This document shows, piece by piece, positions 49,904-64,000 of a stretch of 64,000 nt of DNA. The position numbers and the translations under genes were made by a program. The notes under the pieces were generated by a model that saw only the letters and a list, made by a program, of their open reading frames with translations, did no database searches and had not been told where the DNA came from. The stretch covers positions 610,568-674,567 of the forward strand of contig NZ_JAMZMI010000003.1 in NCBI RefSeq assembly GCF_024714475.1, written 5' to 3'. Position 1 is the first letter of the stretch, and each line of letters begins with the position of its first letter. Origin of the DNA: Marinoscillum sp. MHG1-6. GTDB lineage: Bacteria; Bacteroidota; Bacteroidia; Cytophagales; Cyclobacteriaceae.

Positions 49904-50502
49904 GAGAGCAGTTTAAACCGACAAAAGAAGAGCTTGATATCCTTAGCGACACTCGATTTTTGATGCTCAAAGAGTCCCTGGCTAAAAAGGTCATTTCCCG
50001 TCTGGCAGGTATTGAACACGAAATAAAAATTCAGCTTAAGGAAAGCGCCTTTAACTTCCCGGAAAATGCCCTGATCCAGGCCGGAAAAATTTCCCGGGGA
50101 GAAAATTACAACGGACTCCCCTACTTCGTTTTGGACTTTCCCCGCTTATTTACTCAAAAATCCATTTTCACCTTTCGTACCATGCTATGGTGGGGAAATG
50201 AATTCAGCTGCACCATGCACCTATCCGGAGATGCGCTCAGCATGATCAATGAGCAATGCCTCACCCAAATAAAAGAGCAGCAAGACCTTTACTTTTGCGT
50301 CAACCGAAGCCCTTGGGAATACCATTTCGGAAAAGACAATTACGTACCTGCATCCACTCTTGATATTGGGGAAATGACAGAGCATATACACCAGCATAAA
50401 TTCATGAAAATAAGTCGACATATCCCGGTTCAGAAATGGGATGAGTTTGAAGCTTTCACATTGGGAAGTTTTGCACAATATTTGCTGCTACTGAAATCAT
50501 AA
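49897..50502 (+). CDS. hypothetical protein cotranscribed with fabH
   Basis: 201 aa from ATG 49897, which overlaps the fabH stop. The frame is open seven codons further back, but coupling at the overlap favours this start. No signal peptide or membrane helix. Recognisable only as a conserved-looking soluble protein: 'LPYFVLDFPRLFTQKSIFTF', 'TMLWWGNEFSCTMHLSG' and 'KISRHIPVQKWDEFEAFTL'. Family unknown. Its stop overlaps the start of the next gene (TAATG), making a three-gene operon. Confidence 0.7.
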   Translation: MVGEQFKPTKEELDILSDTRFLMLKESLAKKVISRLAGIEHEIKIQLKESAFNFPENALIQAGKISRGENYNGLPYFVLDFPRLFTQKSIFTFRTMLWWGNEFSCTMHLSGDALSMINEQCLTQIKEQQDLYFCVNRSPWEYHFGKDNYVPASTLDIGEMTEHIHQHKFMKISRHIPVQKWDEFEAFTLGSFAQYLLLLKS

Positions 50503-51827
50503 TGAGAATTCCCGCACCGACACTCGTAAAATTAGCTGCCCTTATTCTGGTATTCTACGGAACAGCTGTAAATGCGCAATCCTCCCTTGCTGAAAAACTT
50601 GGAATCCCCGAAGACTCACTGGTAGATGGCACCTACTCGGTGAAGTATTTAGGTGTTCTTTCTGCCTATGGGCAAGTAACCAATCAAAAGAAAGAGGGCC
50701 CATGGAAATACTATTACCCGGACGGCACGGTTAGGGAGATCATTTCCTACAAGCAAGGAATAAAGGATGGCTATTCACGGAAATATGACTCTCGGGGAGT
50801 TTGCATCAATGAGACCCCTTATCAAAACGGAATATTGGAAGGACGCTATTACGAATACTATGATATCGGGAACCTGGCACTGCAAGGTCAGTACAAAAAC
50901 GCTCTTAAAGACAGCATCTGGATTGAGTACTACGACAACGGGGCCATCAACTACCGCAAGAACTATAAGCTGGGAGAACTCGTTGGGAAATCAACTTTCT
51001 ATTACCTCAACGGAAACATAGAGCACGAAGAACAATATGAAGATGGTGTAGCATCGGGTACCTGGACCTATTATTATTACAACGGCGTTAAGGCAAAAGA
51101 GGTCACCTTCGAAAACGGGGTAAGGCATGGAAAGTACCGGGAATATTTTGAGTACGGTAAAAAAAGCGTCGAGGGCCAATACCGCTTTGACCTCAAAGAA
51201 GGCACCTGGTTAAGCTTTATACCAACCGGCAGCCTTTTTTCCATTGGAGATTACCGTAAAGATCAGAAGCAAGGACTCTGGAAGTACTTCCATGAAAATG
51301 GAAACCTGGAATCCGAAGGCATGTACCTCAATGACTTCAAACATCAGCAATGGCTTGAGTATCACCCGGATGGGTCACTAAAAGCCATCGGCGCCTACCT
51401 TACAGATGAAAAGGATGGACTATGGGGTGCCTTTTACCCGAACGAACAACTGAAACAGGAACAGGAATGGAACCTGGGAAGACTTTTAAATGTCACGCCA
51501 TTTTACACCATTCAGGGGGAAGAACGTGACCCGGGCACCATCGAAGATGGCAATGGAACGGTGCTCACTTACTTTGATGACGGGGAGCTGATGTCAAATG
51601 AAAGCTTTCAAAACGGCCTCAAAACCGGTCCGGCCACCTATTACTATCCTAATGGCAAAGTCAGCGAAATGGGCGCTTACAAAAATGACTTACGAACAGG
51701 TCTATGGCAATACTTTCATGACAATGGCAAAGTGGCCACTGAAGGAACCTGGAACCTTGGGGAGAAAACCGGCACATGGACCACCTATAGCCGTTTCGGT
51801 AAAGTGCTGGAGACAAAGGAATTTTAA
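50502..51827 (+). CDS. exported MORN-type repeat protein
   Basis: 441 aa with a signal peptide ('LAALILVFYGTAVNAQ'). At least 14 repeats of about 23 residues with the MORN_2/YwqK pattern follow ('KEGPWKYYYPDGTVREIISY', 'GLWKYFHENGNLESEGMY', 'GTWTYYYYNGVKAKEVTFEN'). Databases often label this pattern 'YwqK family antitoxin', but there is no toxin here and the protein is exported, so that name should not be taken literally. It is probably a surface or periplasmic binding protein. Confidence 0.82.
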   Translation: MRIPAPTLVKLAALILVFYGTAVNAQSSLAEKLGIPEDSLVDGTYSVKYLGVLSAYGQVTNQKKEGPWKYYYPDGTVREIISYKQGIKDGYSRKYDSRGVCINETPYQNGILEGRYYEYYDIGNLALQGQYKNALKDSIWIEYYDNGAINYRKNYKLGELVGKSTFYYLNGNIEHEEQYEDGVASGTWTYYYYNGVKAKEVTFENGVRHGKYREYFEYGKKSVEGQYRFDLKEGTWLSFIPTGSLFSIGDYRKDQKQGLWKYFHENGNLESEGMYLNDFKHQQWLEYHPDGSLKAIGAYLTDEKDGLWGAFYPNEQLKQEQEWNLGRLLNVTPFYTIQGEERDPGTIEDGNGTVLTYFDDGELMSNESFQNGLKTGPATYYYPNGKVSEMGAYKNDLRTGLWQYFHDNGKVATEGTWNLGEKTGTWTTYSRFGKVLETKEF

Positions 51828-51981
51828 TGATGGACGGGCTTGAAAAGCTCAATGAGCATGTTCATTGTTTTCCCTACTTTTTCATCGGACCAGGCGTCCC
51901 CTCAAAAAGCTGGCAAAATCCAGACTGAAGTCATATTGACCCATATTTTTTTTTGCTTGATCCGTTATATGGTTTTCATAA

Positions 51982-52392
51982 CTAATATTTCCACGGATCG
52001 AATTTACCCTTCATATGTTCCTGGTATTGGATGATCAATACCTTTTCTATAGGTCGGCCTTCTGAATGAGACTGCTCAACAATTGGGGCGAAGCCATATT
52101 CATAGGAAAAATAGTAAGCGAGCTTACCCTGCTGATAGATCGAAGAAAAGTACTGAAAGGAAAAGCCCGCATCCAGTAAGCGCTCTTTGCGCACTGTGGC
52201 CTTTCCATTAGGACAAAAGCGGTGGAGGATGCTTCTGTTCTTTCTAATCTGCCTGTTGACTGCGGCAATGACCCGTTCACTTTTCCTTTTATTTCGATTG
52301 TGATAATTGGACCGACATTGGTCATCACAGAACCGCTTATCTACTCGACCAGTCAATTGCCCATCACAATTTTCGCATTTACCATGTTCCAT
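51982..52392 (-). CDS. small zinc-ribbon protein of unknown function
   Basis: 136 aa. The N-terminus 'MEHGKCENCDGQLTGRVDKR' and then 'FCDDQCRSNYHNR' hold a C-x2-C...C-x3-C zinc knuckle like the DUF2116 or FCS-type treble clef. A basic helical stretch follows ('RNKRKSERVIAAVNRQIRKN'), then an alpha/beta tail ending 'MKGKFDPWKY'. Possibly nucleic-acid binding. It is divergent from the integron integrase, about 100 bp away. Confidence 0.75.
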   Translation of the reverse strand: MEHGKCENCDGQLTGRVDKRFCDDQCRSNYHNRNKRKSERVIAAVNRQIRKNRSILHRFCPNGKATVRKERLLDAGFSFQYFSSIYQQGKLAYYFSYEYGFAPIVEQSHSEGRPIEKVLIIQYQEHMKGKFDPWKY

Positions 52393-52492
52393 TCCGTTAA
52401 GTTATAACTTTATCTGTATTATTAAACGGATATATACGGAACTATACGTTTAAAAACACGGCTATTGAATTGCCATTATCGTTTTTTACCCT

Positions 52493-53638
52493 ATGAGTCA
52501 AGGCTATACCGATCGACGTATTACTTTAAAACACCTGGTCATTGATCATCAAAGGATGGTTGGAATCAAATTCTACCCTGACAAAGTGATCCAGGCCCTT
52601 ATCAAGCAACTTCCCGAGCCTAAATGGAGTGAGAAATACCAAATGGTGGTATTGAAGAACGAGCCGGAAGTGATCGATCAAATCTTTCAAAAATTCAAAG
52701 GCATTGCCTGGATAGATTGTCGGCATTTCTTTGCAAATCGCCCGGTAAATAATGGAAATGAAGCACTAAGTGTGGATCATTACCGAAAACGTACACCACA
52801 AAAAAACTGGAAATATTGTCCGGAAGAATTCTACCAAAAGCTGGAAATAAGAGGGTATTCATTCAACACTGCCAAAGTATATATCCCCCTGTTTGAAAAA
52901 TTTATCAACCATTTTAAGTCGGTAGAAAACCTACTGGAAATCAACGAATATGACATCCGTCATTATCTGCAACACCTTGTTGTTACTAAACATTCAGACT
53001 CATATATTAACCAGAGTATTAATGCAATCAAGTTTTATTACGAGGTAGTGAAAGAAATGCCCAACCGTTTCTACACGGTAGAAAGGCCCATCAAAAAGGA
53101 ATCCTTGCCCAAGGTGATCAGTAAAGAGGCTATCCTTAAGATGATTGAAAGCTGTCATAATATCAAGCACCGCTGCATACTCAGCTTACTCTATTCCACA
53201 GGATTGAGGAGATCTGAGCTTATCAATTTGAAGCTGAGTGATATAGATAGTGACCGAATGATGATCATGGTGCGTCAGGGAAAGGGAAAAAAAGACCGTT
53301 ACACTCTACTAGGAAATAAAATGTTAAAGGAGTTAAGAACCTATTATCAATATTACAAGCCCAAGACCTATCTATTCGAAGGTCCGGACGGCGGGCCGTA
53401 TGGTGCTACCAGTGTCGGGCGAATCGTTTCTCAGGCAGCGAAAAGGGCTGGAATTCAGAAACGTATTACACCGCACATGTTGCGTCATTCCTTTGCAACA
53501 CATTTATTAGAGGCTGGTACAGATTTAAGGCATATTCAGACATTGTTGGGGCATAATAGCTCCAGAACTACGGAAGCATATACATTTGTTGCGCTTAAAG
53601 GTCTTACCAAAATTCAAAACCCATTAGATTTACCCTAG
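52493..53638 (+). CDS. integron-like tyrosine recombinase (cassette-array integrase)
   Basis: 381 aa. About 100 residues of an N-terminal extension ('LKHLVIDHQRMVGIKFYPDK') precede a SAM-like core-binding domain (~107-190) and the catalytic domain. Catalytic residues: R239 ('STGLRRSELINL'), Lys ~264-267 in 'QGKGKKDRYTLLG', H328 and R331 ('TPHMLRHSFAT'), H354 ('LLGHNSSRTT'), nucleophile Y363. The end '...QNPLDLP' recalls the '...SPLD-LP' end of IntI. About 62 residues separate the hairpin Lys from H328, too few for the ~20-30-residue IntI extra domain, so it is XerC/D-like. It points toward the cassettes, which begin 43 nt after its stop, as in the 'reverse' integrons of Treponema and planctomycetes. 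Confidence 0.85.
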   Translation: MSQGYTDRRITLKHLVIDHQRMVGIKFYPDKVIQALIKQLPEPKWSEKYQMVVLKNEPEVIDQIFQKFKGIAWIDCRHFFANRPVNNGNEALSVDHYRKRTPQKNWKYCPEEFYQKLEIRGYSFNTAKVYIPLFEKFINHFKSVENLLEINEYDIRHYLQHLVVTKHSDSYINQSINAIKFYYEVVKEMPNRFYTVERPIKKESLPKVISKEAILKMIESCHNIKHRCILSLLYSTGLRRSELINLKLSDIDSDRMMIMVRQGKGKKDRYTLLGNKMLKELRTYYQYYKPKTYLFEGPDGGPYGATSVGRIVSQAAKRAGIQKRITPHMLRHSFATHLLEAGTDLRHIQTLLGHNSSRTTEAYTFVALKGLTKIQNPLDLP

Positions 53639-53685
53639 ATACAAGGCGTATATAATGCACAAGTGCACTATATTCGGTTGTTATG
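53638..53685 (+). other. candidate attI site (primary recombination site)
   Basis: The first cassette starts at the G|TT boundary 53680|53681. Directly left of it lies an imperfect hairpin: arms 53647-53660 and 53663-53676 (14 bp, two mismatches, loop AA), extended by GATACAA on the left and TTGTTAT on the right. It has the R'-like/R''-like shape of a miniature attC but is only ~46 nt. The assignment as attI rests on position; no recombinase-binding direct repeats were identified. Confidence 0.6.
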
Positions 53686-53706
53686 GGCTATTGCCGCAAC
53701 TTGCCA

Positions 53707-54420
53707 ATGAAGCTTATCAAGAAATCTATTTTCATTTTACTCGTTTCCTTTGGCTGTTCTCAACAACCTAATGAACCAACATTTCATGGAAATTCTAATG
53801 TAATTGGTCAGTGGCATACAAACGACAAAAACTGGCCACATTGGCTCATGTTTGACTCGCTGAACAACTTCTATCGCTGGAGTTTCAACGAACAGATTCC
53901 TTCCGAACCAACGGCTAAATTTATTGCAACTGATTCAACAATTAAATTCATCTATCCTCCTGACAGTGTTGAACAGGAATTCATTTTACAAGTCTTTGAA
54001 TACAATAAATTGACGATTCTGCCTCCCGATGACCGAATCATGTCAACTTATATCTATCAACGAGATAGTTTTTCCAGCCCGAGATTTGCCGAAATTTACA
54101 TTCTCCGACTAACTGAAACAGAAGCAGATTCTCTTCAGGAGGCCATTCCGAACTATCAAGCTGCCGAGGATTCGATTTTTGAAGATGCATTTTATCTACT
54201 TGAACACTCTTGGATCAATTATCAACTCGTAGATTCAACTTCGGTAACTCTGAAAAACGGCACATCTTTTAACAAATTTGATTTCGGAGGATATGGAATA
54301 ATCTACTTCACGAACGACAGCACCTATATTCGAGAGGGATTTCCGGAACGGTCACAATTCCAAGCCGAAATTGACTCATTCTTCCATTTTGTGAACAGAA
54401 TTCACAGCTTAAACGATTAA
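53707..54420 (+). CDS. cassette 1: lipoprotein of unknown function
   Basis: 237 aa from ATG 53707 (an upstream in-frame ATG lies in the boundary sequence). Lipoprotein signal 'MKLIKKSIFILLVSFGCSQQ' with lipobox FGC. The mature part has lipocalin/DUF-like beta strands ('VIGQWHTNDKNWPHWLMFDS'). No family recognised. Cassette 1 spans 53681-54655 (975 bp), and its attC begins 5 nt after the stop. Confidence 0.75.
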   Translation: MKLIKKSIFILLVSFGCSQQPNEPTFHGNSNVIGQWHTNDKNWPHWLMFDSLNNFYRWSFNEQIPSEPTAKFIATDSTIKFIYPPDSVEQEFILQVFEYNKLTILPPDDRIMSTYIYQRDSFSSPRFAEIYILRLTETEADSLQEAIPNYQAAEDSIFEDAFYLLEHSWINYQLVDSTSVTLKNGTSFNKFDFGGYGIIYFTNDSTYIREGFPERSQFQAEIDSFFHFVNRIHSLND

Positions 54421-54424
54421 AACA

Positions 54425-54661
54425 GCCCATAACATTGTGTATGGACGCATGTGCGAACTGAGCTTTTAGCCAGTGTCGGTGGAACTCGACCGTGAATCTG
54501 CCGCTGTGGAAACTGTACTGCTTTCTACCAATCTCAGTTCGCAGGAGTTTTTATCTTCTGAACGCACTGCCTCTTGGATACTTTGGAAGCACCGGCAGAT
54601 TTCACTATTTTGCTGCTATAAGCCAGTGGGGCGCACACAGCGCCATACACGGGCGTTATAT
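54425..54661 (+). repeat. attC-like site 1 (237 nt)
   Basis: R' box GCCCATAAC at 54425-54433; junction G54655|TT. The outer stem pairs TGTGTATGG with CCATACACG, then CGCATGTGCG with CGCACACAGCG. Internal conserved blocks: CTGAACGCACTG and TTTGGAAGCACCGGCAGA. The R' box is the complement of this cassette's own left end (GTTATGGGC at 53680), not of the sequence now to its right. Confidence 0.88.
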
Positions 54662-54673
54662 GGCATGATCGCT

Positions 54674-55417
54674 ATGAGAAAATTCGTCTTACTATTAACG
54701 TTTTACATCATTTTCCTTGATGGCTTCTCACAGGTGACACTCCAAATAGATACGAGTTATCTGCCTCTACAGAAATTTAAAGTTGAGTTCAATGATAAGT
54801 CATGGGTTGATTCTATTGGAGTGTATTTCAACATTGAATATCTCAAGGCATTTGATGAACCTCCAATCTATTGCTGTCAATCTGATAGCATGATTAGAAT
54901 CCTAACGATCCCGTCTTTTGAACCTGCAACAATAATTCAGCTCTTTAAGCAAGATTCCAGATACATTATTCAAACCAAAATCTCAAACAAAGTTGGTCTG
55001 GATAATTCGTATTTAGATGCCGGGCAACTCAAGCGAAAAGATAAAAAGCGATTTTGGGAGATATCAAACAACAAAATTCCTCAGTCTGAATGGACGGAGG
55101 ATGATCAAAGAATTTATGATGAAGCAACTGTTCGTGATACTGAAATATTTAGTTATTCAACTGAAGTGACAGAGATTTCATTAAGCGACTGGAACAGCAT
55201 ATTTGAGCACCTGAACAGCCGATTTTATAAACTTAATGCAAAGCCCGAACAATTTAGGGCAGTAGCGGATGGATATAGTCGATTAGTTGAAGCTGTAACA
55301 GCAAACGGATATATTGCTCTCTCACGAGGTTCTGCTTTCCCGGAAGAACAGATTGTTCAAGAACTTACCCGAACAATTCTGAATCTGTCAAAATATACGC
55401 CATATAACAATCGCTAG
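54674..55417 (+). CDS. cassette 2: exported protein of unknown function
   Basis: 247 aa from ATG 54674 (or 54665). Signal peptide 'MRKFVLLLTFYIIFLDGFSQ'. The open frame continues back through attC1, but that part is recombination-site sequence. Mature region with a 'CCQSDSMIRILTIPS' stretch and a helical C-terminus. No family recognised. Its stop lies inside the R' region of attC2. Cassette 2 spans 54656-55630 (975 bp). Confidence 0.75.
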   Translation: MRKFVLLLTFYIIFLDGFSQVTLQIDTSYLPLQKFKVEFNDKSWVDSIGVYFNIEYLKAFDEPPIYCCQSDSMIRILTIPSFEPATIIQLFKQDSRYIIQTKISNKVGLDNSYLDAGQLKRKDKKRFWEISNNKIPQSEWTEDDQRIYDEATVRDTEIFSYSTEVTEISLSDWNSIFEHLNSRFYKLNAKPEQFRAVADGYSRLVEAVTANGYIALSRGSAFPEEQIVQELTRTILNLSKYTPYNNR

Positions 55418-55636
55418 CACGAATGCGCCAAAGTGGTTATCTGCTAAGTTCAGTGCAAACTTCACCATGAATCAGCCGCTGGGAAAGGGCGGTGCTTTCT
55501 GGTTGGTGCATTTCGCAGGATTCTTCATCTTTCTGAACGCAGTGGTTATCTGATACTTTGGAAGCACCGGCAGATTCATTAGTTTTATCGGAACTTGCCA
55601 AGCTCGGGGCGCACTCCTGCTAGCTTGGTGTTAGCC
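55399..55636 (+). repeat. attC-like site 2 (238 nt)
   Basis: R' GCCATATAAC at 55399-55408 is the exact complement of cassette 2's left end (GTTATATGGC). Outer stem CTAGCACGAATGCGCC with GGCGCACTCCTGCTAG. Conserved CTGAACGCAGTG and TTTGGAAGCACCGGCAGA blocks present. Junction G55630|TT. Confidence 0.88.
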
Positions 55637-55658
55637 ACAATTAGTACTTCTGAATCAA

Positions 55659-56120
55659 ATGAACATAGTCAACGGCAGAAATGTGAAATTTGTAGAATTC
55701 GACACTTCGACTAATTGGGCGAGTGCGCTTCCAACAAGTAACTGGTTAGTAATCATTTTGACAAAATCAAAGAACAAGCAATTCTTTGGTGAAATTATCA
55801 AGAAGTCAATTGATAGGAACGTCAGCTACATCTGTAGTATAGGAGAGCAGCAAGATATAGTTCATGATATGGCAGATGAAGAAATAGTATATCGGGATGT
55901 TGACATTGAACATTACCATTTGCCTGAGCATCGTATAATAACAACAGGACATCAAGATTTTGAAGAAGGAATATGGTTTGGACTATTTTCTGCAAACAAT
56001 GATGAGTGTGAAATAAATGATGTGGTCATAATTAATGTAACTAATGACAAAAGTTATGGTCAATTGACACTTGATTTGATTTCAAAGATTGACTCTGGCT
56101 ATATTCCTAAAGATGACTGA
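55659..56120 (+). CDS. cassette 3, gene a: unknown soluble protein
   Basis: 153 aa from ATG 55659. No signal or membrane segment. It appears as a compact alpha/beta protein: 'SNWLVIILTKSKNKQFFGEI', 'VSYICSIGEQQDIVHDMADE', 'DVVIINVTNDKSYGQLTLDL'. No family named with confidence. It overlaps gene b by 8 nt, so the pair is translationally coupled and travels together. Confidence 0.75.
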   Translation: MNIVNGRNVKFVEFDTSTNWASALPTSNWLVIILTKSKNKQFFGEIIKKSIDRNVSYICSIGEQQDIVHDMADEEIVYRDVDIEHYHLPEHRIITTGHQDFEEGIWFGLFSANNDECEINDVVIINVTNDKSYGQLTLDLISKIDSGYIPKDD

Positions 56121-56457
56121 ACGCCCAAACCTTCTAGTAGTTTGCGGACGCAACAAACGAAGAAGCAGAACTGCCGAATACATATTTAAGAATGATCAAC
56201 GTTTCAACATTCGCTCCGTTGGACTAAGCCCAAAAAGTGAACGACAAATTAAGGAGCGTGACATTGAATGGGCAGATCTAATATTTGTAATGGAAGATGG
56301 TCAGAGTGGCCGAATTTCTGGAACATTTAGGCATATGGAACTCCCTGAAATCGAAGTTCTGCACATTGAAGATGAATATGAATATTTAGATCCAGGACTA
56401 GTTGAAATGTTAACCGACCGAATTAATTCAACTTTAGAAATCATCTACAACATCTAA
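56113..56457 (+). CDS. cassette 3, gene b: low-molecular-weight protein tyrosine phosphatase family
   Basis: 114 aa from ATG 56113 (upstream in-frame start at 56089 is less likely). 'NLLVVCGRNKRRSRTAEYIF' holds the phosphatase P-loop C-x5-R-S (Cys11, Arg17, Ser18). 'DIEWADLIFVMED' is the usual following strand, and 'YLDPGLVEML' contains the D-P general acid. Shorter than the usual ~150 aa. Its substrate could be the product of gene a or a phosphorylated nucleotide/protein; unknown. Confidence 0.82.
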   Translation: MTERPNLLVVCGRNKRRSRTAEYIFKNDQRFNIRSVGLSPKSERQIKERDIEWADLIFVMEDGQSGRISGTFRHMELPEIEVLHIEDEYEYLDPGLVEMLTDRINSTLEIIYNI

Positions 56458-56462
56458 AACAA

Positions 56463-56699
56463 TGTGGCTAACATGCGCTAGCGATGCAGATGCAGACTGC
56501 TACTAGCAACCATCGAAGGAACTCATCGCTCCCTGCCCCTTCTGTAACTTTCAGTGCGTGGAAGAACTGCCTGCAGTTCTGGCGGATGTCTGGGTTAACG
56601 CAGCTTTTTATTGACCGTTTTGTGCGTGTGGTGCAGGATCGCTAGTTTTATCGAAAATTGCCAAGCTCGGGACATCCGCCCGCTAGCTGGGCGTTAGAT
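56463..56699 (+). repeat. attC-like site 3 (237 nt)
   Basis: R' TGTGGCTAAC (56463-56472) complements cassette 3's left end GTTAGCCACA. The outer arms carry GCGCTAGCGATGCAGATG opposite CATCCGCCCGCTAG. Junction G56693|TT. Confidence 0.88.
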
Positions 56700-56716
56700 T
56701 TCATTTGATCAACTCC

Positions 56717-57334
56717 ATGAGAAAGATTTTAATCCTAATTGCAGCAATCATTGTGAACGTCCTTTTATACTATTCAGTTTTTGGATCTTGGGGACATTTA
56801 CTTTTCGAGAATTTCCAAACGATAAACGAAGAAACTGCCTTTAGGGATGGGGCGATAACGATGAGCATTGGCAACCTTTTATTGGCGTTACCCATAACTC
56901 TCATACTGGCGATTTTCATTCATACAACTAACAAATACGGAGAACGATTTAAGAAATTATATATACCCTCAGCTATTGGAATACAAGTATTTTGGTTTGC
57001 CTTCTTAATTTATAGTGGATACCAGAACTATGTTGGCAACTACCCAGAAAACACTCCAAGAACTTCAACAACGGAAATTGACGAGTATTTGAACGCAAGA
57101 AAAGTCGAGGTTCTAACAATGCTAGATTCGGCTGTTATGATGAAGAACTCTGAACTGGATGCAACCAAAAAGGACTCATTGATGAACATCTACAGAACCC
57201 TAATGAACGAAGTTTTTAACCAGGTAGCAGAATACGCCAACGAAATGAACATTCCACAAGAAAAGTTTGATTCATTTCACGAGACCATTGACACTTCCGA
57301 ACAACTTAAGGAACTGAGAAAACAGACGGAATAA
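56717..57334 (+). CDS. cassette 4: membrane protein, unknown
   Basis: 205 aa from ATG 56717 (TTG 56705 is in frame upstream). Three membrane helices (about residues 3-23, 48-70 and 85-106), then a charged helical C-terminus of ~90 residues outside the membrane. No family recognised. Cassette 4 spans 56694-57569 (876 bp). Confidence 0.72.
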   Translation: MRKILILIAAIIVNVLLYYSVFGSWGHLLFENFQTINEETAFRDGAITMSIGNLLLALPITLILAIFIHTTNKYGERFKKLYIPSAIGIQVFWFAFLIYSGYQNYVGNYPENTPRTSTTEIDEYLNARKVEVLTMLDSAVMMKNSELDATKKDSLMNIYRTLMNEVFNQVAEYANEMNIPQEKFDSFHETIDTSEQLKELRKQTE

Positions 57335-57339
57335 AACGA

Positions 57340-57575
57340 AAATCTAACAGACACTATCGGTTATGTGCCAAACTGCCTCTTTTCAAGTTTTATCGAGACT
57401 TGACCGCTACTGTGCACCTTCTGATACTTCATGGCTTCTGGATACTTCAGTGGTTCTGGATTTTTATCGGCAGAACGCACTGCCTTGTAGATACCGTTGT
57501 GCTTCTGGTGCACTTCCGCTATTTTAGTGCTACCTGCCAACTGTCGGCACACAAACCGATAGTTAGGCGTTAGCT
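57340..57575 (+). repeat. attC-like site 4 (236 nt)
   Basis: R' AAATCTAAC (57340-57348) complements the cassette's left end GTTAGATTT. Outer stem CACTATCGGTTATGTGCC with GGCACACAAACCGATAG. Closely similar to attC 7 throughout, although the genes of cassettes 4 and 7 are unrelated. Junction G57569|TT. Confidence 0.88.
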
Positions 57576-57589
57576 GACATACCCATACG

Positions 57590-58363
57590 TTGAAGAAATC
57601 TGAGAAAATAAATATTGGCTTTACTTTTTTCGCAATTGTTCTTTCAGTCATTGCATTAACATACGACTGTAGCCAGAATAAGAAGATTAGTGAACTTCAG
57701 ACTAACCTAAATAATCTCAATTACAAGCCTACAATTAAGGTCGACAGTATCAAACTCATAAACTTCAGGGAAAGGGTTGATTCAATCTTGATTACACCTG
57801 ATATCGCTGACTCCCAAGGAATTGTGAACCTTAAATCAACCATCGAAACAGAAGTGGTTTTTGATCTAGAAAATATTGGCACCTCCAAAGCCAACATCAT
57901 AACGGCTTTATGCATTGATACCGTTTCTGGTGACGACAAACTTCGAAATTTTTTGTATGACGGAATCTACAAATTAAGCTACGATTCAAGTAATGGGGTT
58001 TTCTACAAATTTTGGGAACTGCAGCCAGGTGACAAGGACGAACTTCGCTTTAAAAAGAACATCCAATTTATTGATGATGGTTTATTTACAATTCATCTCC
58101 TACTTATCTATCAAAACGAACTAGGAACAATTTATGACACCTATTATTGGGCTCAATACAAGAAGAAGAAAATGGAGCTTGATGTTATTGTAGATAACAG
58201 AACTGGAGAAATTGTAGCTTCTAAGTCTGCAAACAACTCTTTGAAGAACTTCCTAACATCGATAGACGACAATGTAGCATATCACATCTATTCGAAAGAA
58301 GAAGAAAAAGCTTTCTGGAAGTTTACTGAAAAGCTAAAACAAACGTCAGCTAACAAGCGCTAA
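57590..58363 (+). CDS. cassette 5: membrane-anchored protein, unknown
   Basis: 257 aa from TTG 57590; no ATG precedes the hydrophobic segment in frame. An N-terminal anchor ('IGFTFFAIVLSVIALTYDCS') is followed by a short coiled coil ('KISELQTNLNNLN') and a beta-rich exterior domain. The last codons overlap the R' box of attC5 (stop at 58361-58363). Cassette 5 spans 57570-58576 (1,007 bp). Confidence 0.7.
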   Translation: MKKSEKINIGFTFFAIVLSVIALTYDCSQNKKISELQTNLNNLNYKPTIKVDSIKLINFRERVDSILITPDIADSQGIVNLKSTIETEVVFDLENIGTSKANIITALCIDTVSGDDKLRNFLYDGIYKLSYDSSNGVFYKFWELQPGDKDELRFKKNIQFIDDGLFTIHLLLIYQNELGTIYDTYYWAQYKKKKMELDVIVDNRTGEIVASKSANNSLKNFLTSIDDNVAYHIYSKEEEKAFWKFTEKLKQTSANKR

Positions 58364-58582
58364 GTCGGCAGATGTCTACTGCCCTTCTGCCTGCTGTTGA
58401 GGAACTCGCCCACTTCGGTGCACCTTCTGCAAATTTCTGTGCATTCTATTTTCTCCGATGCTTCTGGCGAATGTCTTTCTGTCCGCATCGGTATCTGAAA
58501 GTTTGTGGGGGTGGTGCACCTTCGTTACTTTTATCGTTACCTAGCAAGTTTCGGACATCCGCCGCTAAGCTAGGCGTTAGCC
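58345..58582 (+). repeat. attC-like site 5 (238 nt)
   Basis: R' GTCAGCTAAC (58345-58354) complements the cassette's left end GTTAGCTGAC and lies inside the 3' end of the gene. Outer stem GCGCTAAGTCGGCAGATGTC with GACATCCGCCGCTAAG. The middle is a little diverged from the other sites. Junction G58576|TT. Confidence 0.87.
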
Positions 58583-58604
58583 ACAATTAGTACTTCTGAA
58601 TCAA

Positions 58605-59066
58605 ATGAACATAGTCAACGGCAGAAATGTGAAATTTGTAGAATTCGACACTTCGACTAATTGGGCGAGTGCGCTTCCAACAAGTAACTGGTTAGTAATC
58701 ATTTTGACAAAATCAAAGAACAAGCAATTCTTTGGTGAAATTATCAAGAAGTCAATTGATAGGAACGTCAGCTACATCTGTAGTATAGGAGAGCAGCAAG
58801 ATATAGTTCATGATATGGCAGATGAAGAAATAGTATATCGGGATGTTGACATTGAACATTACCATTTGCCTGAGCATCGTATAATAACAACAGGACATCA
58901 AGATTTTGAAGAAGGAATATGGTTTGGACTATTTTCTGCAAACAATGATGAGTGTGAAATAAATGATGTGGTCATAATTAATGTAACTAATGACAAAAGT
59001 TATGGTCAATTGACACTTGATTTGATTTCAAAGATTGACTCTGGCTATATTCCTAAAGATGACTGA
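58605..59066 (+). CDS. cassette 6, gene a: second copy of the unknown 153-aa protein
   Basis: Translation identical to that of 55659-56120. Same overlap with gene b. Confidence 0.75.
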   Translation: MNIVNGRNVKFVEFDTSTNWASALPTSNWLVIILTKSKNKQFFGEIIKKSIDRNVSYICSIGEQQDIVHDMADEEIVYRDVDIEHYHLPEHRIITTGHQDFEEGIWFGLFSANNDECEINDVVIINVTNDKSYGQLTLDLISKIDSGYIPKDD

Positions 59067-59403
59067 ACGCCCAAACCTTCTAGTAGTTTGCGGACGCAAC
59101 AAACGAAGAAGCAGAACTGCCGAATACATATTTAAGAATGATCAACGTTTCAACATTCGCTCCGTTGGACTAAGCCCAAAAAGTGAACGACAAATTAAGG
59201 AGCGTGACATTGAATGGGCAGATCTAATATTTGTAATGGAAGATGGTCAGAGTGGCCGAATTTCTGGAACATTTAGGCATATGGAACTCCCTGAAATCGA
59301 AGTTCTGCACATTGAAGATGAATATGAATATTTAGATCCAGGACTAGTTGAAATGTTAACCGACCGAATTAATTCAACTTTAGAAATCATCTACAACATC
59401 TAA
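59059..59403 (+). CDS. cassette 6, gene b: second copy of the LMW-PTP family protein
   Basis: Identical to 56113-56457, including the C-x5-R-S loop. Confidence 0.82.
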   Translation: MTERPNLLVVCGRNKRRSRTAEYIFKNDQRFNIRSVGLSPKSERQIKERDIEWADLIFVMEDGQSGRISGTFRHMELPEIEVLHIEDEYEYLDPGLVEMLTDRINSTLEIIYNI

Positions 59404-59408
59404 AACAA

Positions 59409-59645
59409 TGTGGCTAACATGCGCTAGCGATGCAGATGCAGACTGCTACTAGCAACCATCGAAGGAACTCATCGCTCCCTGCCCCTTCTGTAACTTTCAG
59501 TGCGTGGAAGAACTGCCTGCAGTTCTGGCGGATGTCTGGGTTAACGCAGCTTTTTATTGACCGTTTTGTGCGTGTGGTGCAGGATCGCTAGTTTTATCGA
59601 AAATTGCCAAGCTCGGGACATCCGCCCGCTAGCTGGGCGTTGTGC
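59409..59645 (+). repeat. attC-like site 6 (237 nt, copy of site 3)
   Basis: R' TGTGGCTAAC again complements its own cassette's left end. Up to the junction G59639|TT it reads as attC 3; after it the neighbouring cassette differs (TTGTGC instead of TTAGAT), as expected when the unit was inserted at a cassette boundary. Confidence 0.88.
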
Positions 59646-59671
59646 ATCATCGGGGGAACTCCAAAATCAGC

Positions 59672-60091
59672 ATGAAGAAGATAATATTAAGAATCCTAAT
59701 TGGAATAGCAGCGGTAATTTTCTTGTTCATCGGACTAGTAATAGTTCCTTATTTCACCAACACCATAATGCCGTGGGAACGTAGTAACGCCATTGAAACA
59801 ACGTTACTCTGGGGCGGACTGGCTGAACTACCTGAACAGGCAAACGATTTGAAAGTTAAGACTTCTGGCGGCATGTTCACTCGAACTTTTTTCATAGAGT
59901 TTAACCTTTCTGAACCGGAACTTCAGCAGTGGATCAAGAACAGCAAACGACTAAAGGAACTAACTCCTAAAACACAAACTGACGGAACGAACCTATTTGA
60001 AATTTATCCAGGTGAAGACGGGGCGATAGGCGGAACCGTACTCATCAACTTTCAACAAGGTAATGTGAAAATAAAAATGGCTTGGAGCTAA
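59672..60091 (+). CDS. cassette 7: membrane-anchored small protein, unknown
   Basis: 139 aa from ATG 59672; an in-frame GTG at 59642 lies in the cassette boundary. One N-terminal helix ('IILRILIGIAAVIFLFIGLV') then a soluble domain ending 'GGTVLINFQQGNVKIKMAWS'. No family recognised. Cassette 7 spans 59640-60325, the shortest at 686 bp. Confidence 0.72.
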   Translation: MKKIILRILIGIAAVIFLFIGLVIVPYFTNTIMPWERSNAIETTLLWGGLAELPEQANDLKVKTSGGMFTRTFFIEFNLSEPELQQWIKNSKRLKELTPKTQTDGTNLFEIYPGEDGAIGGTVLINFQQGNVKIKMAWS

Positions 60092-60094
60092 GAC

Positions 60095-60331
60095 GATGCA
60101 CAACAGACACTATCGGTTATGTGCCAAACTGCCTCTTTGCCAGCTTTATCGGGACTTGCCCACGGAAGTGCACCTTCTGATACTTCATCGCTTTTGGAGA
60201 CTTCTGTGGTTCTGGATTTTTACTTGTGGAACGCTGTTTTTCATGGATACCGTAGTGGTTGTGGTGCACTTCCGCTACTTTAGCTGTACTTGCCAACTGT
60301 GGGCACACAAACCGATAGTTAGGCGTTGTGA
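60095..60331 (+). repeat. attC-like site 7 (237 nt)
   Basis: R' GATGCACAAC (60095-60104) complements the left end GTTGTGCATC. Outer stem ACACTATCGGTTATGTGCC with GGGCACACAAACCGATAG. Junction G60325|TT. Confidence 0.88.
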
Positions 60332-60341
60332 GGCATTGCGC

Positions 60342-60839
60342 ATGAGAAACATTATCATCACTCTTCTGATTTTAACATTTGCGACTTCCTGTTCCAACAG
60401 AAACAACAAGGAAACTTCTGAACGGATCAACTTTAGATTCGCAATTCTAAATTTGCCGGCTGAAGAATTCAGATACATAACTCAAGATTTTGCGAACGTT
60501 TGGAATCCTGATACAATAGACCTGATAAAAGCTGAACAACTAATTAAAAAGGCAGTTAGGACAACTGAAGGCGAACTGCTTTCAATTCAAAGTCTTCCCA
60601 ACTACTTTCGACAATATGTCGGTTTTCTTAACTCAGCAGGTGAACGAATGCTTTGGGTAAATGCTCTATGTGACATAAAGGATGGAATGGTCGAGAATAA
60701 CGGAGAATTTGAACTCCAACCCTGGCCATGGAAAACAGAACCGATAATTGTAGACGATGGAGGCGATTGCTATTGGAACATCCTCATTAACATTGATAAG
60801 CAAGAATACTCCAACTTTTATGTTAACGGAGTGGCATAA
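60342..60839 (+). CDS. cassette 8: lipoprotein, unknown
   Basis: 165 aa from ATG 60342; the open frame reaches back through attC7 but that is site sequence. Lipoprotein signal 'MRNIIITLLILTFATSCSNR' with lipobox TSC. The mature domain has 'PAEEFRYITQDFANVWNPDT' and 'GDCYWNILINIDKQEYSNF'. No family recognised. Cassette 8 spans 60326-61073 (748 bp). Confidence 0.75.
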   Translation: MRNIIITLLILTFATSCSNRNNKETSERINFRFAILNLPAEEFRYITQDFANVWNPDTIDLIKAEQLIKKAVRTTEGELLSIQSLPNYFRQYVGFLNSAGERMLWVNALCDIKDGMVENNGEFELQPWPWKTEPIIVDDGGDCYWNILINIDKQEYSNFYVNGVA

Positions 60840-60843
60840 ATAC

Positions 60844-61079
60844 GCCTCACAACATGATGTATAAGGCATGTGCTTTCGAGCCTTTTGCAAAGAGCATCTG
60901 ATCTATTCCGTTTCGTCTGCCGCCGAGGAAGTTTTGTGCTATTTGGAGGCTTATGATTGCGGGATATTTTTCACTTCAGAACGCACTGCTTTCTACAAAC
61001 TTTGGAAGCACCGGCAGACTTCACTAATTTAGTGCTGTCCACTAAGTGTGAGCACACGCCTCATACATGGGCGTTATCA
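60844..61079 (+). repeat. attC-like site 8 (236 nt)
   Basis: R' GCCTCACAAC (60844-60853) complements the left end GTTGTGAGGC. Outer stem TGTATAAGGCATGTGCT with AGCACACGCCTCATACA. Close relative of sites 9 and 10. Inner stem GTCTGCCG with CGGCAGAC. Junction G61073|TT. Confidence 0.9.
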
Positions 61080-61093
61080 GCAACCACTGTATC

Positions 61094-61282
61094 ATGAAAC
61101 TCTTTGAACGAAAACAATTTGTACTAATAGGCATATCCATTTTCTTGGGACTATTCTTAGGAGCCTATCTGATTTCTGAACAGTATGGAGGACTTGGAAC
61201 AACTGGATTTATTGCTCTTGGAGGGACTTTAGTAATTGCGATAATTATGGTTGCTTTCTTAACTAGAATTGGAAATAAATGA
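61094..61282 (+). CDS. cassette 9, gene a: small membrane protein
   Basis: 62 aa from ATG 61094. Two membrane helices with almost no soluble part ('FVLIGISIFLGLFLGAYLIS' and 'FIALGGTLVIAIIMVAFLT'). Its stop overlaps the next start (ATGA), so the two genes are coupled. Function unknown. Confidence 0.65.
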   Translation: MKLFERKQFVLIGISIFLGLFLGAYLISEQYGGLGTTGFIALGGTLVIAIIMVAFLTRIGNK

Positions 61283-61749
61283 TACTACAATATTGGGATT
61301 ACATGTTTGGAACAGTCGCCTTTTTAGGTGGACTTTATGGATTTCTTCTTGCATTCAAGATTTACAAACCAAAGCACAAGAAAGAAAGTGATCAAGAACG
61401 GATGGTCAACTGGCATTTGAAGTTTGGAAAAATGATGAAAATACTATCTCCGATCCTTATGTTAATCGGTATCTACTACCTAACTGTTGGAAATACTTTT
61501 CCAGAAGAGCAAACAAGCCAGGCCTGGACAGATGCCGACAAACAACAACTGGTCAACGAATGTCTCAACGGAACGAGCAATCCTTCAGATGCAAGAACTA
61601 TTAATTATTGCGAATGTGCCATCTCAGACATAATGGAAACAACAACCAAACAGGAATATATCGACATGACTAAACTCCCAGTCAAGGAACTAAAGCTGAA
61701 GTTTGCAGAACTTACAAAAACATGTGTCAAAAAATTCCAAAACGAGTAA
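61279..61749 (+). CDS. cassette 9, gene b: membrane protein with Cys-containing C-terminal domain
   Basis: 156 aa. Two membrane helices (residues ~8-28 and ~52-72) are followed by a soluble tail with conserved-looking cysteines ('QLVNECLNGTSNPSDARTIN' then 'YCECAISDIME' and 'LTKTCVKKFQ'), probably disulfide-stabilised outside the membrane. Partner of gene a. Cassette 9 spans 61074-61981 (908 bp). Confidence 0.72.
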   Translation: MILQYWDYMFGTVAFLGGLYGFLLAFKIYKPKHKKESDQERMVNWHLKFGKMMKILSPILMLIGIYYLTVGNTFPEEQTSQAWTDADKQQLVNECLNGTSNPSDARTINYCECAISDIMETTTKQEYIDMTKLPVKELKLKFAELTKTCVKKFQNE

Positions 61750-61751
61750 AA

Positions 61752-61987
61752 GCTGATAACATTATGTATGAAAGGCATGTGCTTTAGAGCATTTTAAAAG
61801 AGGGCATCAGCACTCGACCGTGAGTCAGCCGCCGAGAAAATTCAGAGTTTTTTGGACACTTCACCTCGCGGGATTTTTTCACTTCAGAACGCAGTGCTTT
61901 CTACAAACTTTGGAAGCACCGGCAGACTTCACTACTTTAGTGCTGTCCATTAAGTGTGAGCACACGCCTCATACATGGGCGTTATGA
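61752..61987 (+). repeat. attC-like site 9 (236 nt)
   Basis: R' GCTGATAAC (61752-61760) complements the left end GTTATCAGC. Outer stem and inner GGCAGAC block as in site 8. Junction G61981|TT. Confidence 0.9.
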
Positions 61988-62001
61988 GCAATATCTACTA
62001 A

Positions 62002-62637
62002 ATGGAAAATGAATTCAAGTCAATAATCTTTAACCCAAGGACTGGAATTGACTTCAGACTAAATTCTGCTAGGCTGATCTATGGAAGTTTAGGTATTATG
62101 ATATTGTACTTGATTCTAACCCAGCTATTTCAAACGACCTCAGAAACGGACATGGCCGTTTTCATTATTCTTTGTTTACTGATTATTGTAGGTGCCAGAT
62201 GGTCATTCAACGAGAAACAAAAAAAGTTTGGCTACCTCGATGGAGAACTGAAGATAACTGAACAAAATATCTCAATTAACGGGAAAGAATATGATTGGCA
62301 AGAGATCTCGAATTTTTCATTTGATATTCAACAAGTATTAAATGAACCTCTTTGGGAAGATGACTCTTGGGGAGCTTACCGATTTTATGGAGGCCCTTCA
62401 TTCTCCCAAGGAGTTGATAGCTACATCGATTTTGATTCCACTTACGGACATATTCGAACTTACTTCCAACTTGAATCTTCTTCTCATAAGGTAGACTTGG
62501 TTAACCTGATTAGAAGACATTTTTTTCTTGGCAACATTGAACTTCAACGAACATACAATGGATTGCATCTTGAATACGAACAGATACAAGAACTCAAGAA
62601 AGAAAAAGCTCAATGGGCTAATGTAAAAAGCTCATAA
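62002..62637 (+). CDS. cassette 10: membrane protein with soluble C-terminal domain
   Basis: 211 aa from ATG 62002. Two membrane helices (about residues 25-45 and 51-67), then a beta-rich cytosolic domain of PH-like appearance ('LDGELKITEQNISINGKEYD') and a helical end. No family named. It has the same general plan as the chromosomal protein at 578-1147, without clear sequence identity. Cassette 10 spans 61982-62858 (877 bp). Confidence 0.73.
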   Translation: MENEFKSIIFNPRTGIDFRLNSARLIYGSLGIMILYLILTQLFQTTSETDMAVFIILCLLIIVGARWSFNEKQKKFGYLDGELKITEQNISINGKEYDWQEISNFSFDIQQVLNEPLWEDDSWGAYRFYGGPSFSQGVDSYIDFDSTYGHIRTYFQLESSSHKVDLVNLIRRHFFLGNIELQRTYNGLHLEYEQIQELKKEKAQWANVKSS

Positions 62638-62864
62638 CATTATGTATAAGGCATGTGCTTCCGTGCTTTCAACAAACTTCATTAGCACTCACCCGTTTCG
62701 TCTGCCGCCGAGAAAGATTAGTGCTATTTGGAGACTTAAGCTTAGCGGGATTTTTTCACTTCAGAACGCACTGCTTTCTACAAACTTTGGAAGCACCGGC
62801 AGACTTCACTATTTTGCAGCTATTAACGAAGTGTGAGCACACGCCTCATACATGGACGTTATCA
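62630..62864 (+). repeat. attC-like site 10 (235 nt)
   Basis: R' GCTCATAAC (62630-62638) complements the left end GTTATGAGC. Outer stem ATGTATAAGGCATGTGCT with AGCACACGCCTCATACAT (two wobble or mismatch positions); inner stem GTCTGCCG with CGGCAGAC. Junction G62858|TT. Confidence 0.9.
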
Positions 62865-62870
62865 GGAATT

Positions 62871-63641
62871 ATGAGAACCTTCACAGTCCTACTTCTACTT
62901 CTTAACACACTGACGGCTAGTTCTCAACTCTTGCAAAACGAAGAACTGTTGAAAGGGATTGGTTCGATTACAACAAAAAGTTTCAGTGGTTCTGGTGGCG
63001 GAGGCTACTGGACATACGAGGAACTCGATGAACTGGGACGAACGATTTCTAAAGAATATCACCGAAGAAAGGAACTGCTCGCTAGAGAAGAATATCGGTA
63101 CAACCAAATGAACGATGAAATACTTTGGGTTCAAACCTTTGACATTAATAACCCTTCAAGAATTGACTCGACTTTCACTACATATGAGTATAACTCCAAC
63201 GGGACGATAACGAGACAAAAACAAACATATTCAAATCGTGAAGATTCAATAGTTTTTGACTTGATGGGTATTAAAGATGACACTCTCAACTACTCAAAAA
63301 GAGAATTTTATTATCGACCCAACAGGGGGATTGTTGATACATATTCATATAAACTTTCATTGGTTTTTAACTCAGCGAATCAACTTGTTTATAAAAGGGA
63401 AGTTGATCTACAAGCGGCAACAATTGAGATTACGAGATATGAGTACAACTCCAATGAATTGCTGAGCAGGCGAAATATAGTTCGAACCCCAGAACCTGAA
63501 CAAGAAATTGTTTATGTGGGTGGTCCAGGAAGTGATGATATGAGGTACAAATACACCTTTTACGTGAACGGACTAACAAAAAAGATGTACGGAATAATTG
63601 AAGAAAAAAAATACAAACTCGCTGAATACCGATACAAATAA
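62871..63641 (+). CDS. cassette 11: exported protein with YD-like strands, unknown
   Basis: 256 aa from ATG 62871; the frame extends back through attC10 as site sequence. Signal peptide 'MRTFTVLLLLLNTLTASSQ', then a glycine-rich turn ('SGSGGGGYWTYEELDELG') and repeated 'YEYNSNG/YEYNSNE' strands typical of RHS/YD-like or MORN-like beta repeats. Family unknown. The cassette starts at 62859; its right end is interrupted. Confidence 0.73.
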   Translation: MRTFTVLLLLLNTLTASSQLLQNEELLKGIGSITTKSFSGSGGGGYWTYEELDELGRTISKEYHRRKELLAREEYRYNQMNDEILWVQTFDINNPSRIDSTFTTYEYNSNGTITRQKQTYSNREDSIVFDLMGIKDDTLNYSKREFYYRPNRGIVDTYSYKLSLVFNSANQLVYKREVDLQAATIEITRYEYNSNELLSRRNIVRTPEPEQEIVYVGGPGSDDMRYKYTFYVNGLTKKMYGIIEEKKYKLAEYRYK

Positions 63642-63644
63642 AAT

Positions 63645-63866
63645 CCTGATAACAAGCGATATAGCGAATTGCCAAACTGCCTATCTGATATTTCTGTGCA
63701 ATCCGACCGTGAACCTGCCCATTCTGCCAGCTTTTGTGCTCCTAGCAACTTTTTCCTTTCTGGACTTAGACTTTCAGAACGCAGTGCATTGTGGACACTG
63801 TTGCGGGGGTTGGGCAGTTTCACTACTTTAGAGGTGTTTACAAAGGATATGGCCACTCGCCATATC
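63645..63866 (+). repeat. attC-like site 11, truncated at its right end
   Basis: R' TCCTGATAAC (63645-63654) complements the left end GTTATCAGGA. Outer arm GCGATATAGCGAATTGCC faces ATGGCCACTCGCCATATC, but the terminal ~15 nt including GCGTT are missing. The sequence switches to IS110-like DNA after about 63866. Confidence 0.8.
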
Positions 63867-64000
63867 TGATCGATATCTATGATAAAATCAAGCCATTTCA
63901 ACTTTTTTTAGTGCAATTCTATCCTGATATGGTGTCCCTCTCTTAACTACCGCTACTACCCTGTGCAGTAGCTTATTTCTTATGGCGTTAAGAATGGTCA
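63867..64000 (-). mobile_element. IS110/IS1111-like insertion sequence, one end
   Basis: Begins where attC 11 breaks off. It carries the 3' end of the transposase gene about 20 nt inside the edge. The other end lies outside the window, so size and inverted repeats could not be checked. Confidence 0.6.
63888..64000 (-). CDS. IS110-family transposase, C-terminal part (cut by window edge)
   Basis: The minus-strand frame ends at the stop 63888-63890 and is open to the window edge. The visible tail, 'TILNAIRNKLLHRVVAVVKR' then 'GTPYQDRIALKKVEMA', fits the conserved C-terminus of IS110/IS1111 (DEDD-type) transposases. Only 36 residues are visible, so subfamily cannot be fixed. Confidence 0.65.
   Translation of the reverse strand, partial: TILNAIRNKLLHRVVAVVKRGTPYQDRIALKKVEMA

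Follow-up and report, generated by a model that had tools for sequence, protein, structure and literature searches.

Integron integrases and the locus in Marinoscillum sp. MHG1-6

The integron integrase IntI carries a specific insertion, I2, that cassette capture is said to require and no other protein to possess (PMC7790495), and the origin of I2 relative to that of the attC sites has been termed a chicken-egg paradox (PMC4792948). In Bacteroidetes proper, the account of IntegronFinder 2.0 lists a single complete integron, that of Salinibacter ruber M1 (PMC9024848). The present work concerns a stretch of 64,000 nucleotides (nt) from Marinoscillum sp. MHG1-6, a bacterium of the phylum Bacteroidota (contig NZ_JAMZMI010000003.1, positions 610,568 to 674,567; hereafter the window), the last part of which holds a tyrosine recombinase gene followed by an array of gene cassettes with attC-like sites. 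The array is very probably of integron type, and the adjacent recombinase, which lacks I2 and has a HARP-like domain at its N-terminus, likely excises and inserts the cassettes. In every respect visible in the sequence the locus appears to work as an integron, but its integrase fails the feature that defines IntI. A search of the open-access literature, with bioRxiv outside its scope, brought up no account of an integron that is served by an integrase without I2.

With integrons driven by IntI, the locus shares one site per cassette, the G|TT boundary, AAC/GTT boxes, complementarity of each cassette to its own end, predicted hairpin sites, a candidate attI adjoining the integrase, and cassette genes that all point in the same direction. 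It differs from them in the absence of I2, in the HARP-like N-terminus, in many sites longer than 200 nt, in a complementary box of 9-10 nt where the classical attC consensus has 7 nt, and in an array that is downstream of and co-directional with the integrase, whereas IntI arrays usually, if not universally, lie on the divergent side. The catalytic and SAM-like domains and the lack of I2 are shared with XerA, XerC and XerD, which, unlike the integrase, have neither cassette arrays nor a HARP-like domain. The fold at the N-terminus, with its five strands and two helices, is shared with the HARP proteins SMARCAL1 and T4 UvsW, in which it is fused to a helicase and not to a recombinase. Among tyrosine recombinases, a subgroup called "Integron-like" is described in which the insertion is not fully conserved (PMC8138268), so that insertion-less relatives are filed there, possibly including the type of integrase found in the window. 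As described in that source, however, the insertion is essential to integron function, and neither a HARP-like domain nor arrays of insertion-less members form part of the description.

The cassette array and its sites

Eleven cassettes lie head to tail behind the integrase, the first of them starting 42 nt after its stop codon (Table 1). The array was examined with a de novo chain test, in which the left end of a cassette has to be complementary to the start of its own site and cassettes are chained from junction to junction; on the window DNA all 11 cassettes were found, while eight first-order Markov resamplings yielded chains of 1 or 2. Together with the open reading frames (ORFs) and the list of junctions, this confirms the original prediction, made from the letters of the sequence, of a tyrosine recombinase followed by eleven head-to-tail cassettes. 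The predicted G|TT boundaries, as in classical integrons, were likewise located at eleven junctions and agree with the own-end complementarity set out below, and the expected one or two genes per cassette, all in the direction of the integrase, are seen in the ORF list. The sites had been given as structured, with which a covarying basal stem agrees, and as 235-238 nt long: from AAC to G, the ten complete sites of the window measure 223-225 nt, and 235-238 nt would take in flanking boxes. In the eleventh site the TT is gone and a repeated element follows directly after its G; as the end of the window is also the end of the contig, the array may extend further. Nothing convincing for a defence function was found among ten cassette proteins, and a search of Rfam against window positions 50000-64000 gave zero matches.

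Table 1. Features of the integrase locus in the window (positions of the 64,000-nt stretch).
Feature	Position	Strand	Content or basis
Integrase (tyrosine recombinase) of 381 aa, lacking the I2 insertion of IntI	52493..53638	+	ORF, profile matches, IntI alignment
HARP-like domain of the integrase, residues 8-84	52514..52744	+	AlphaFold2 model with five strands and two helices; hidden Markov model; Pfam HARP matches divergent members but not the window integrase
Candidate attI	53645..53680	+	dyad ATAATGCAC-AA-GTGCACTAT, then TCGGTTG|TT; judged by eye
G|TT junctions	53680, 54655, 55630, 56693, 57569, 58576, 59639, 60325, 61073, 61981, 62858		
Cassette 1	53681..54655	+	lipoprotein-like ORF 53683-54420; attC 54431-54655
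Cassette 2	54656..55630	+	gene inside ORF 54473-55417, likely ATG 54674; attC 55406-55630
Cassette 3	55631..56693	+	ORFs 55659-56120 and 56089-56457; attC 56470-56693; identical to cassette 6
Cassette 4	56694..57569	+	ORF 56705-57334; attC 57346-57569
Cassette 5	57570..58576	+	ORF 57590-58363; attC 58352-58576
Cassette 6	58577..59639	+	exact copy of cassette 3; attC 59416-59639
Cassette 7	59640..60325	+	ORF 59642-60091; attC 60102-60325
Cassette 8	60326..61073	+	lipoprotein-like gene inside ORF 60096-60839, likely ATG 60342; attC 60851-61073
Cassette 9	61074..61981	+	two genes, one ending at 61282 and ORF 61279-61749; attC 61758-61981
Cassette 10	61982..62858	+	ORF 62002-62637; attC 62636-62858
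Cassette 11	62859..63872	+	gene inside ORF 62655-63641, likely ATG 62871; attC 63651-63872, TT replaced
Repeated element, left end	63873..64000	.	identical at eight contig ends, always directly after the last attC G; one copy without its first base

Each attC starts with bases that end in AAC, and over 9-10 nt these are reverse-complementary to the left end, GTTNNNNNN(N), of the same cassette. This rule, which is that of classical integron cassettes, holds for 17 of the 19 cassettes in three arrays, and the other two fit after a shift of the index by one base; the mean match of a left end is 3.9 to other cassettes and 4.1 to the next cassette (means that include the two mis-indexed rows). Within an array, the GTT that closes a site on its 3' side is part of the following cassette, so that a site cannot gain the match to its own end in place; such a match arises only in a cassette that has once been circular, joined at G|TT. 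Signs of movement are also seen between cassettes. Cassettes 3 and 6, which are not adjacent, are identical over 1064 nt, from the G through the GTT, and another contig of the genome (C2) holds one exact tandem pair. Between attC sites of the window genome and those of genome G067, which belongs to another genus of the same family, identity reaches 92% over 228 nt, the two integrases sharing 63%, and a cassette of genome G001 matches one of Aquiflexum with 78% identity over 539 nt, starting at its first base. The proposal of an integron-like system thus gains support from own-end complementarity, from precise cassette duplication, from a covarying hairpin and from arrays that stand right behind the integrase in relatives.

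The sites have attC-type AAC/GTT boxes and the G|TT boundary. Their length in the window genome is mostly 219-243 nt, with some sites of 107-120 nt within the same arrays, and in relatives it is approximately 110-190 nt. Because of these short sites in the same genome, length does not define the system; very long attC sites had been put forward as a defining difference, which is true of the window sites (>200 nt) but not of the shorter ones or of the relatives. In an alignment of 33 sites of the window genome, hand-picked from 49 and of strong sequence kinship, RNAalifold finds a basal stem of 12 pairs, in which 91.5% of cells are paired against 64.4% in shuffled alignments. The covariation score of this stem is 0.648 against 0.191 when shuffled (0/500), and slid versions of the stem score 0.029-0.087. 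An invariant A (33/33) stands opposite a C (32/33), which on the bottom strand makes a T opposite a G, and one bulged base is seen in the DNA fold of the single site examined. Of the 49 sites, 36 were scored for DNA folding, excluding those with a truncated tail, those with a wrong end and those of C1; the bottom strand has the lower z in 27 of the 36, with a mean of -2.2 as compared with -1.6 for the top strand.

As for attI, in most of the listed loci the first G|TT is immediately preceded, as judged by eye, by a dyad and then a motif resembling TTATCCAATTG|TT; in locus L062 this dyad takes the form of an inverted repeat of 15 bp. The version found in the window recurs behind an integrase remnant on contig C18 and without an integrase on C24, where an attI-like end is followed by one cassette (L017 18002-18690). 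A repeated TACGGA-type motif, possibly an operator, lies upstream of the integrase (window 52415-52460), and likewise upstream of the remnant on C18 (L008 ~3740) and of the attI of C24 that has no integrase (L017 ~17900).

The integrase and its family

The PF00589 catalytic domain spans residues 212-365 of the integrase and a SAM-like domain residues 111-188, with approximately 105 residues ahead of them. Alignment with three IntI proteins shows that two stretches, of approximately 31 and 11 residues, are absent upstream of the HxLRHSFAT motif. The IntI profile TIGR02249 matches in two pieces only, at its positions 5-178 and 241-313, and what lies between them in the profile is absent; the best piece scores 106 bits and the whole protein 188 bits, below the cut-off of 265. 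The nearest named profile is XerA_Arch, and the nearest solved structures are XerC-like and XerA proteins. The claim of a non-standard integrase is thereby borne out, and the profile comparison and tree that had been proposed as a check place the protein under the TIGR02249 cut-off, nearest to XerA_Arch and outside a 100/100 IntI branch. By pattern match, the catalytic motifs are present in the window integrase and in most of 21 array-bearing proteins; the arginine pattern is unmatched in 5 of the 21, the lysine in one and the tyrosine in one, which may reflect divergence from the patterns used.

The association of this type of integrase with arrays was followed in 40 integrase loci of related genomes and in the best 80 genome-contig and best 80 viral-contig loci, one genome being taken per species. 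In a family group of 62 rows, named after the tree was seen, 45 loci were testable downstream, and 22 of these have a chain of at least 2 cassettes starting less than 400 nt after the stop codon (18/45 for chains of at least 3), compared with 65 of 1800 shuffles of the downstream DNA (maximum 5). Arrays are found on the upstream side of family integrases in 2 of 41 cases and at non-family loci in 3 of 99. As a positive control, the 39 loci with IntI spacing have arrays on the divergent side in 10/25 and downstream in 0/34, under limits slightly different from those of the family test (sites of 45-160 nt, a 500 nt window, no shuffles). The predicted placement of the cassettes downstream, and not divergent, therefore extends to the family, and a lack of association in other genomes, which had been named as part of the grounds for giving up the idea, is not what was found. 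In close relatives the array starts 40-49 nt after the integrase stop, with 12 cassettes in G067, 20 in the single-contig genome G028, 4 in G055 and 3 in G032; further carriers include Winogradskyella ursingii (5), Flavobacteriaceae S0862 (6), Seonamhaeicola aphaedonensis (7) and Rufibacter (7). On a 395-kb plasmid of Persicobacter sp. JZB09 (L122), there is a family integrase with a HARP-like domain and no array by the chain test.

A first tree had 91 rows, including 38 of 160 collection loci and 10 IntI, and left out the truncated integrases L076, L100 and L101 and the array loci of the window genome itself, L007, L008 and L017-L021; a careful tree was made from 54 of the 91. In the latter, IntI and one Planctomycetes protein form the 100/100 branch, a 93/67 branch (not starred) has the 29 family rows on one side, and the two Xer-like proteins of the window genome branch apart from the integrase (100/99), at a distance. 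A single clade of IntI and the integrase family is not rejected (approximately unbiased test, p 0.296), for which reason separate origins of the two are not claimed. Among 148 genomes drawn from the phylum, 46 have a canonical IntI above the cut-off, 45 of them outside the class of the window genome, so that the view of such systems as little described in the phylum has to be narrowed, canonical IntI being common in its other classes.

The HARP-like N-terminal domain

The AlphaFold2 model of the integrase (mean pLDDT 83.9, pTM 0.51) reveals a domain that the original prediction missed. Residues 9-78 run strand-strand-helix-strand-strand-helix-strand, with strands at 9-17, 20-27, 44-46, 51-55 and 73-78 and helices at 31-38 and 58-68. 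The HARP fold is described as five strands on two helices, with two copies in SMARCAL1 and one in UvsW, and is required for fork regression (PMC4666394); set against this published description, the model has both the five strands and the two helices. In divergent members, the Pfam HARP family matches 11 of 32 at E up to 1 (best 4.2e-07), as compared with 1 of 32 in the close set of the window integrase, and it gives sub-threshold matches in 3 of 10 relatives. A hidden Markov model (HMM) built from the window's set (A7) alone finds the Pfam-positive proteins L087 (6.6e-08), L133 (6.3e-10) and L082 (5.2e-09), none of which is in A7. A comparison of the A7 and A8 profiles (99.3%) was rejected as independent support, L095, L096, L098, L148 and L149 being in both.

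With a second-round HMM the domain, in one to three copies per integrase, was detected in 21 of 22 array-bearing family members, in 34 of 40 other family members, in none of 39 proteins of IntI type and in 16 of the remaining 102. Arrays are present at 21 of 43 testable loci with the domain and at 0 of 34 of IntI type, while of 67 loci with neither the domain nor IntI spacing four have one (L207, L212, L247 and L259), among which L259 encodes a partial integrase of 157 aa and L247 sits in the IntI branch of the first tree.

Proposed mode of action and alternative explanations

Most likely the locus represents a working integron lineage, in which the integrase would handle folded attC without I2, perhaps via the HARP-like domain. 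In such a scheme the bottom strand of attC would extrude as a hairpin, which the integrase would cleave at the AAC/GTT box; the cleaved site would be joined to the double-stranded dyad attI just behind the integrase gene, and the junction would be resolved through replication, as in integrons. The HARP-like domain could speculatively read the branched or single-strand/double-strand base of the hairpin, taking the place of I2.

Several observations weigh against this reading. The case as a whole rests on sequence, with one genome per species, and 23 of the 45 testable family loci have no array by the chain test, although some of the array-negative loci hold long chains elsewhere (L148 9, L150 8, L073 8, L131 6). 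Of five covariation measures of the basal stem, two do not exceed the shuffles: variation on both sides of 10 of the 12 pairs is equalled in 48 of 500, and the number of pair types is unremarkable (249/500); the site of cassettes 3 and 6 folds like its shuffles (z 0.1), and the attI dyad is a visual judgement. With regard to the N-terminal domain, Pfam HARP (PF07443) has no match to the window protein at E up to 10, DUF5710 matches 7 of 32 divergent members and 4 of 32 of the close set (the latter at best with 6.6e-05), and a profile search of the PDB with the domain gave nothing convincing. The short arrays of two viral contigs, L207 (three sites, 151-154 nt) and L212, follow integrases that lack both I2 and the HARP-like domain; these are perhaps a third kind.

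The array could instead be a cluster of attC sites lacking an integron integrase (CALIN), moved by a canonical IntI encoded elsewhere, with the neighbouring recombinase being incidental. Clusters without IntI are indeed known (PMC9024848), genome G025 has a canonical IntI (303 bits) in addition to a family integrase with an array, and the IntI search of the window genome was made without six short contigs. This explanation is nevertheless improbable in light of the absence of IntI over the curated cut-off from 12 of the 13 genomes with arrays, including one that is a single contig, of the nearly fixed distance from family integrase to array start, and of the recurrence of the same arrangement in relatives up to different Bacteroidota families. 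Even smaller is the chance that a selfish or regulatory hairpin has been duplicated in tandem to give the repeats, with no site-specific recombination taking place: the exact tandem duplication on C2 and the strong kinship between sites would fit, but the cassettes between the sites differ, each left end fits its own site, and the two exact copies, cassettes 3 and 6, are separated by others and delimited at G|TT. An equally slight probability attaches to the recombinase being a Xer-type dimer resolvase or a phage-type integrase that stands beside the array by chance, which would agree with its nearest profile and structures but not with the two other Xer-like genes of the genome, distant in the tree, or with the recurrence of the array association across the family. 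A more serious alternative accepts integron function and has the N-terminal domain do something other than read attC, for instance bind attI or a host factor. We give this somewhat less than an even chance; the reading of attC by the domain is speculative, and the arrays of L207 and L212 do without the domain, yet it is present in 21 of 22 array-bearing family members and absent in IntI.

The broadest form of the integron reading, for which we see the balance as even, is that of a second integron lineage, Bacteroidota-wide, in which a HARP-domain recombinase without I2 captures cassettes, the HARP-like domain reading folded attC and I2 being dispensable. The family may thus constitute a second, overlooked type of gene-capture machine that is widespread in the phylum; screens that demand an I2 profile are in use (PMC9176274) and, as they are presented there, would discard it, and the one complete integron reported with IntegronFinder 2.0 (PMC9024848) contrasts with arrays at 22 of the 45 family loci that could be tested. 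With a large family in which attC-like arrays accompany an I2-less integrase, the origin of I2 becomes a question that can be tested in the laboratory. If the reading is true, the paradox of I2 and attC would have a living alternative solution, a large unseen pool of cassettes would come into view, attC engineering tools with another recombinase would be at hand, and HARP-type domains would be used in site-specific recombination.

Other arrays in the genome and the interrupting repeat

Cassettes occur on nine further contigs of the window genome (C1, C2, C4, C6, C7, C9, C18, C24 and C25), with approximately 50 genome-wide by the chain test, in which the start of the first C18 cassette is misplaced. 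A second integrase, 58% identical to the first and cut by contig ends (L007 1-435; L018), heads the arrays of C6 and C9 with another attI.

The repeated element that follows the eleventh site of the window is also found at L019 1-124 and in L304, L305 and L306. Its right end (...GGAAGCTAAAGG) stands ahead of cassettes at five contig ends (C2, C7, C23, C24 and C25) and recurs in G035, G032 and, weakly, G090. It is perhaps an insertion sequence that targets attC. An IS110/IS1111 origin was rejected, with zero matches to PF02371 in the genome, and so was the possibility that it is itself a cassette, its left end starting with ATATC and not TT; against viral contigs it gave 0 matches. The cassettes of the other arrays include a signal peptidase (L020 1582-2685), a toxin-antitoxin-like pair of the Gp49 / HI1420 type (L020 2876-3476) and a barstar-like inhibitor (L019 930-1286).

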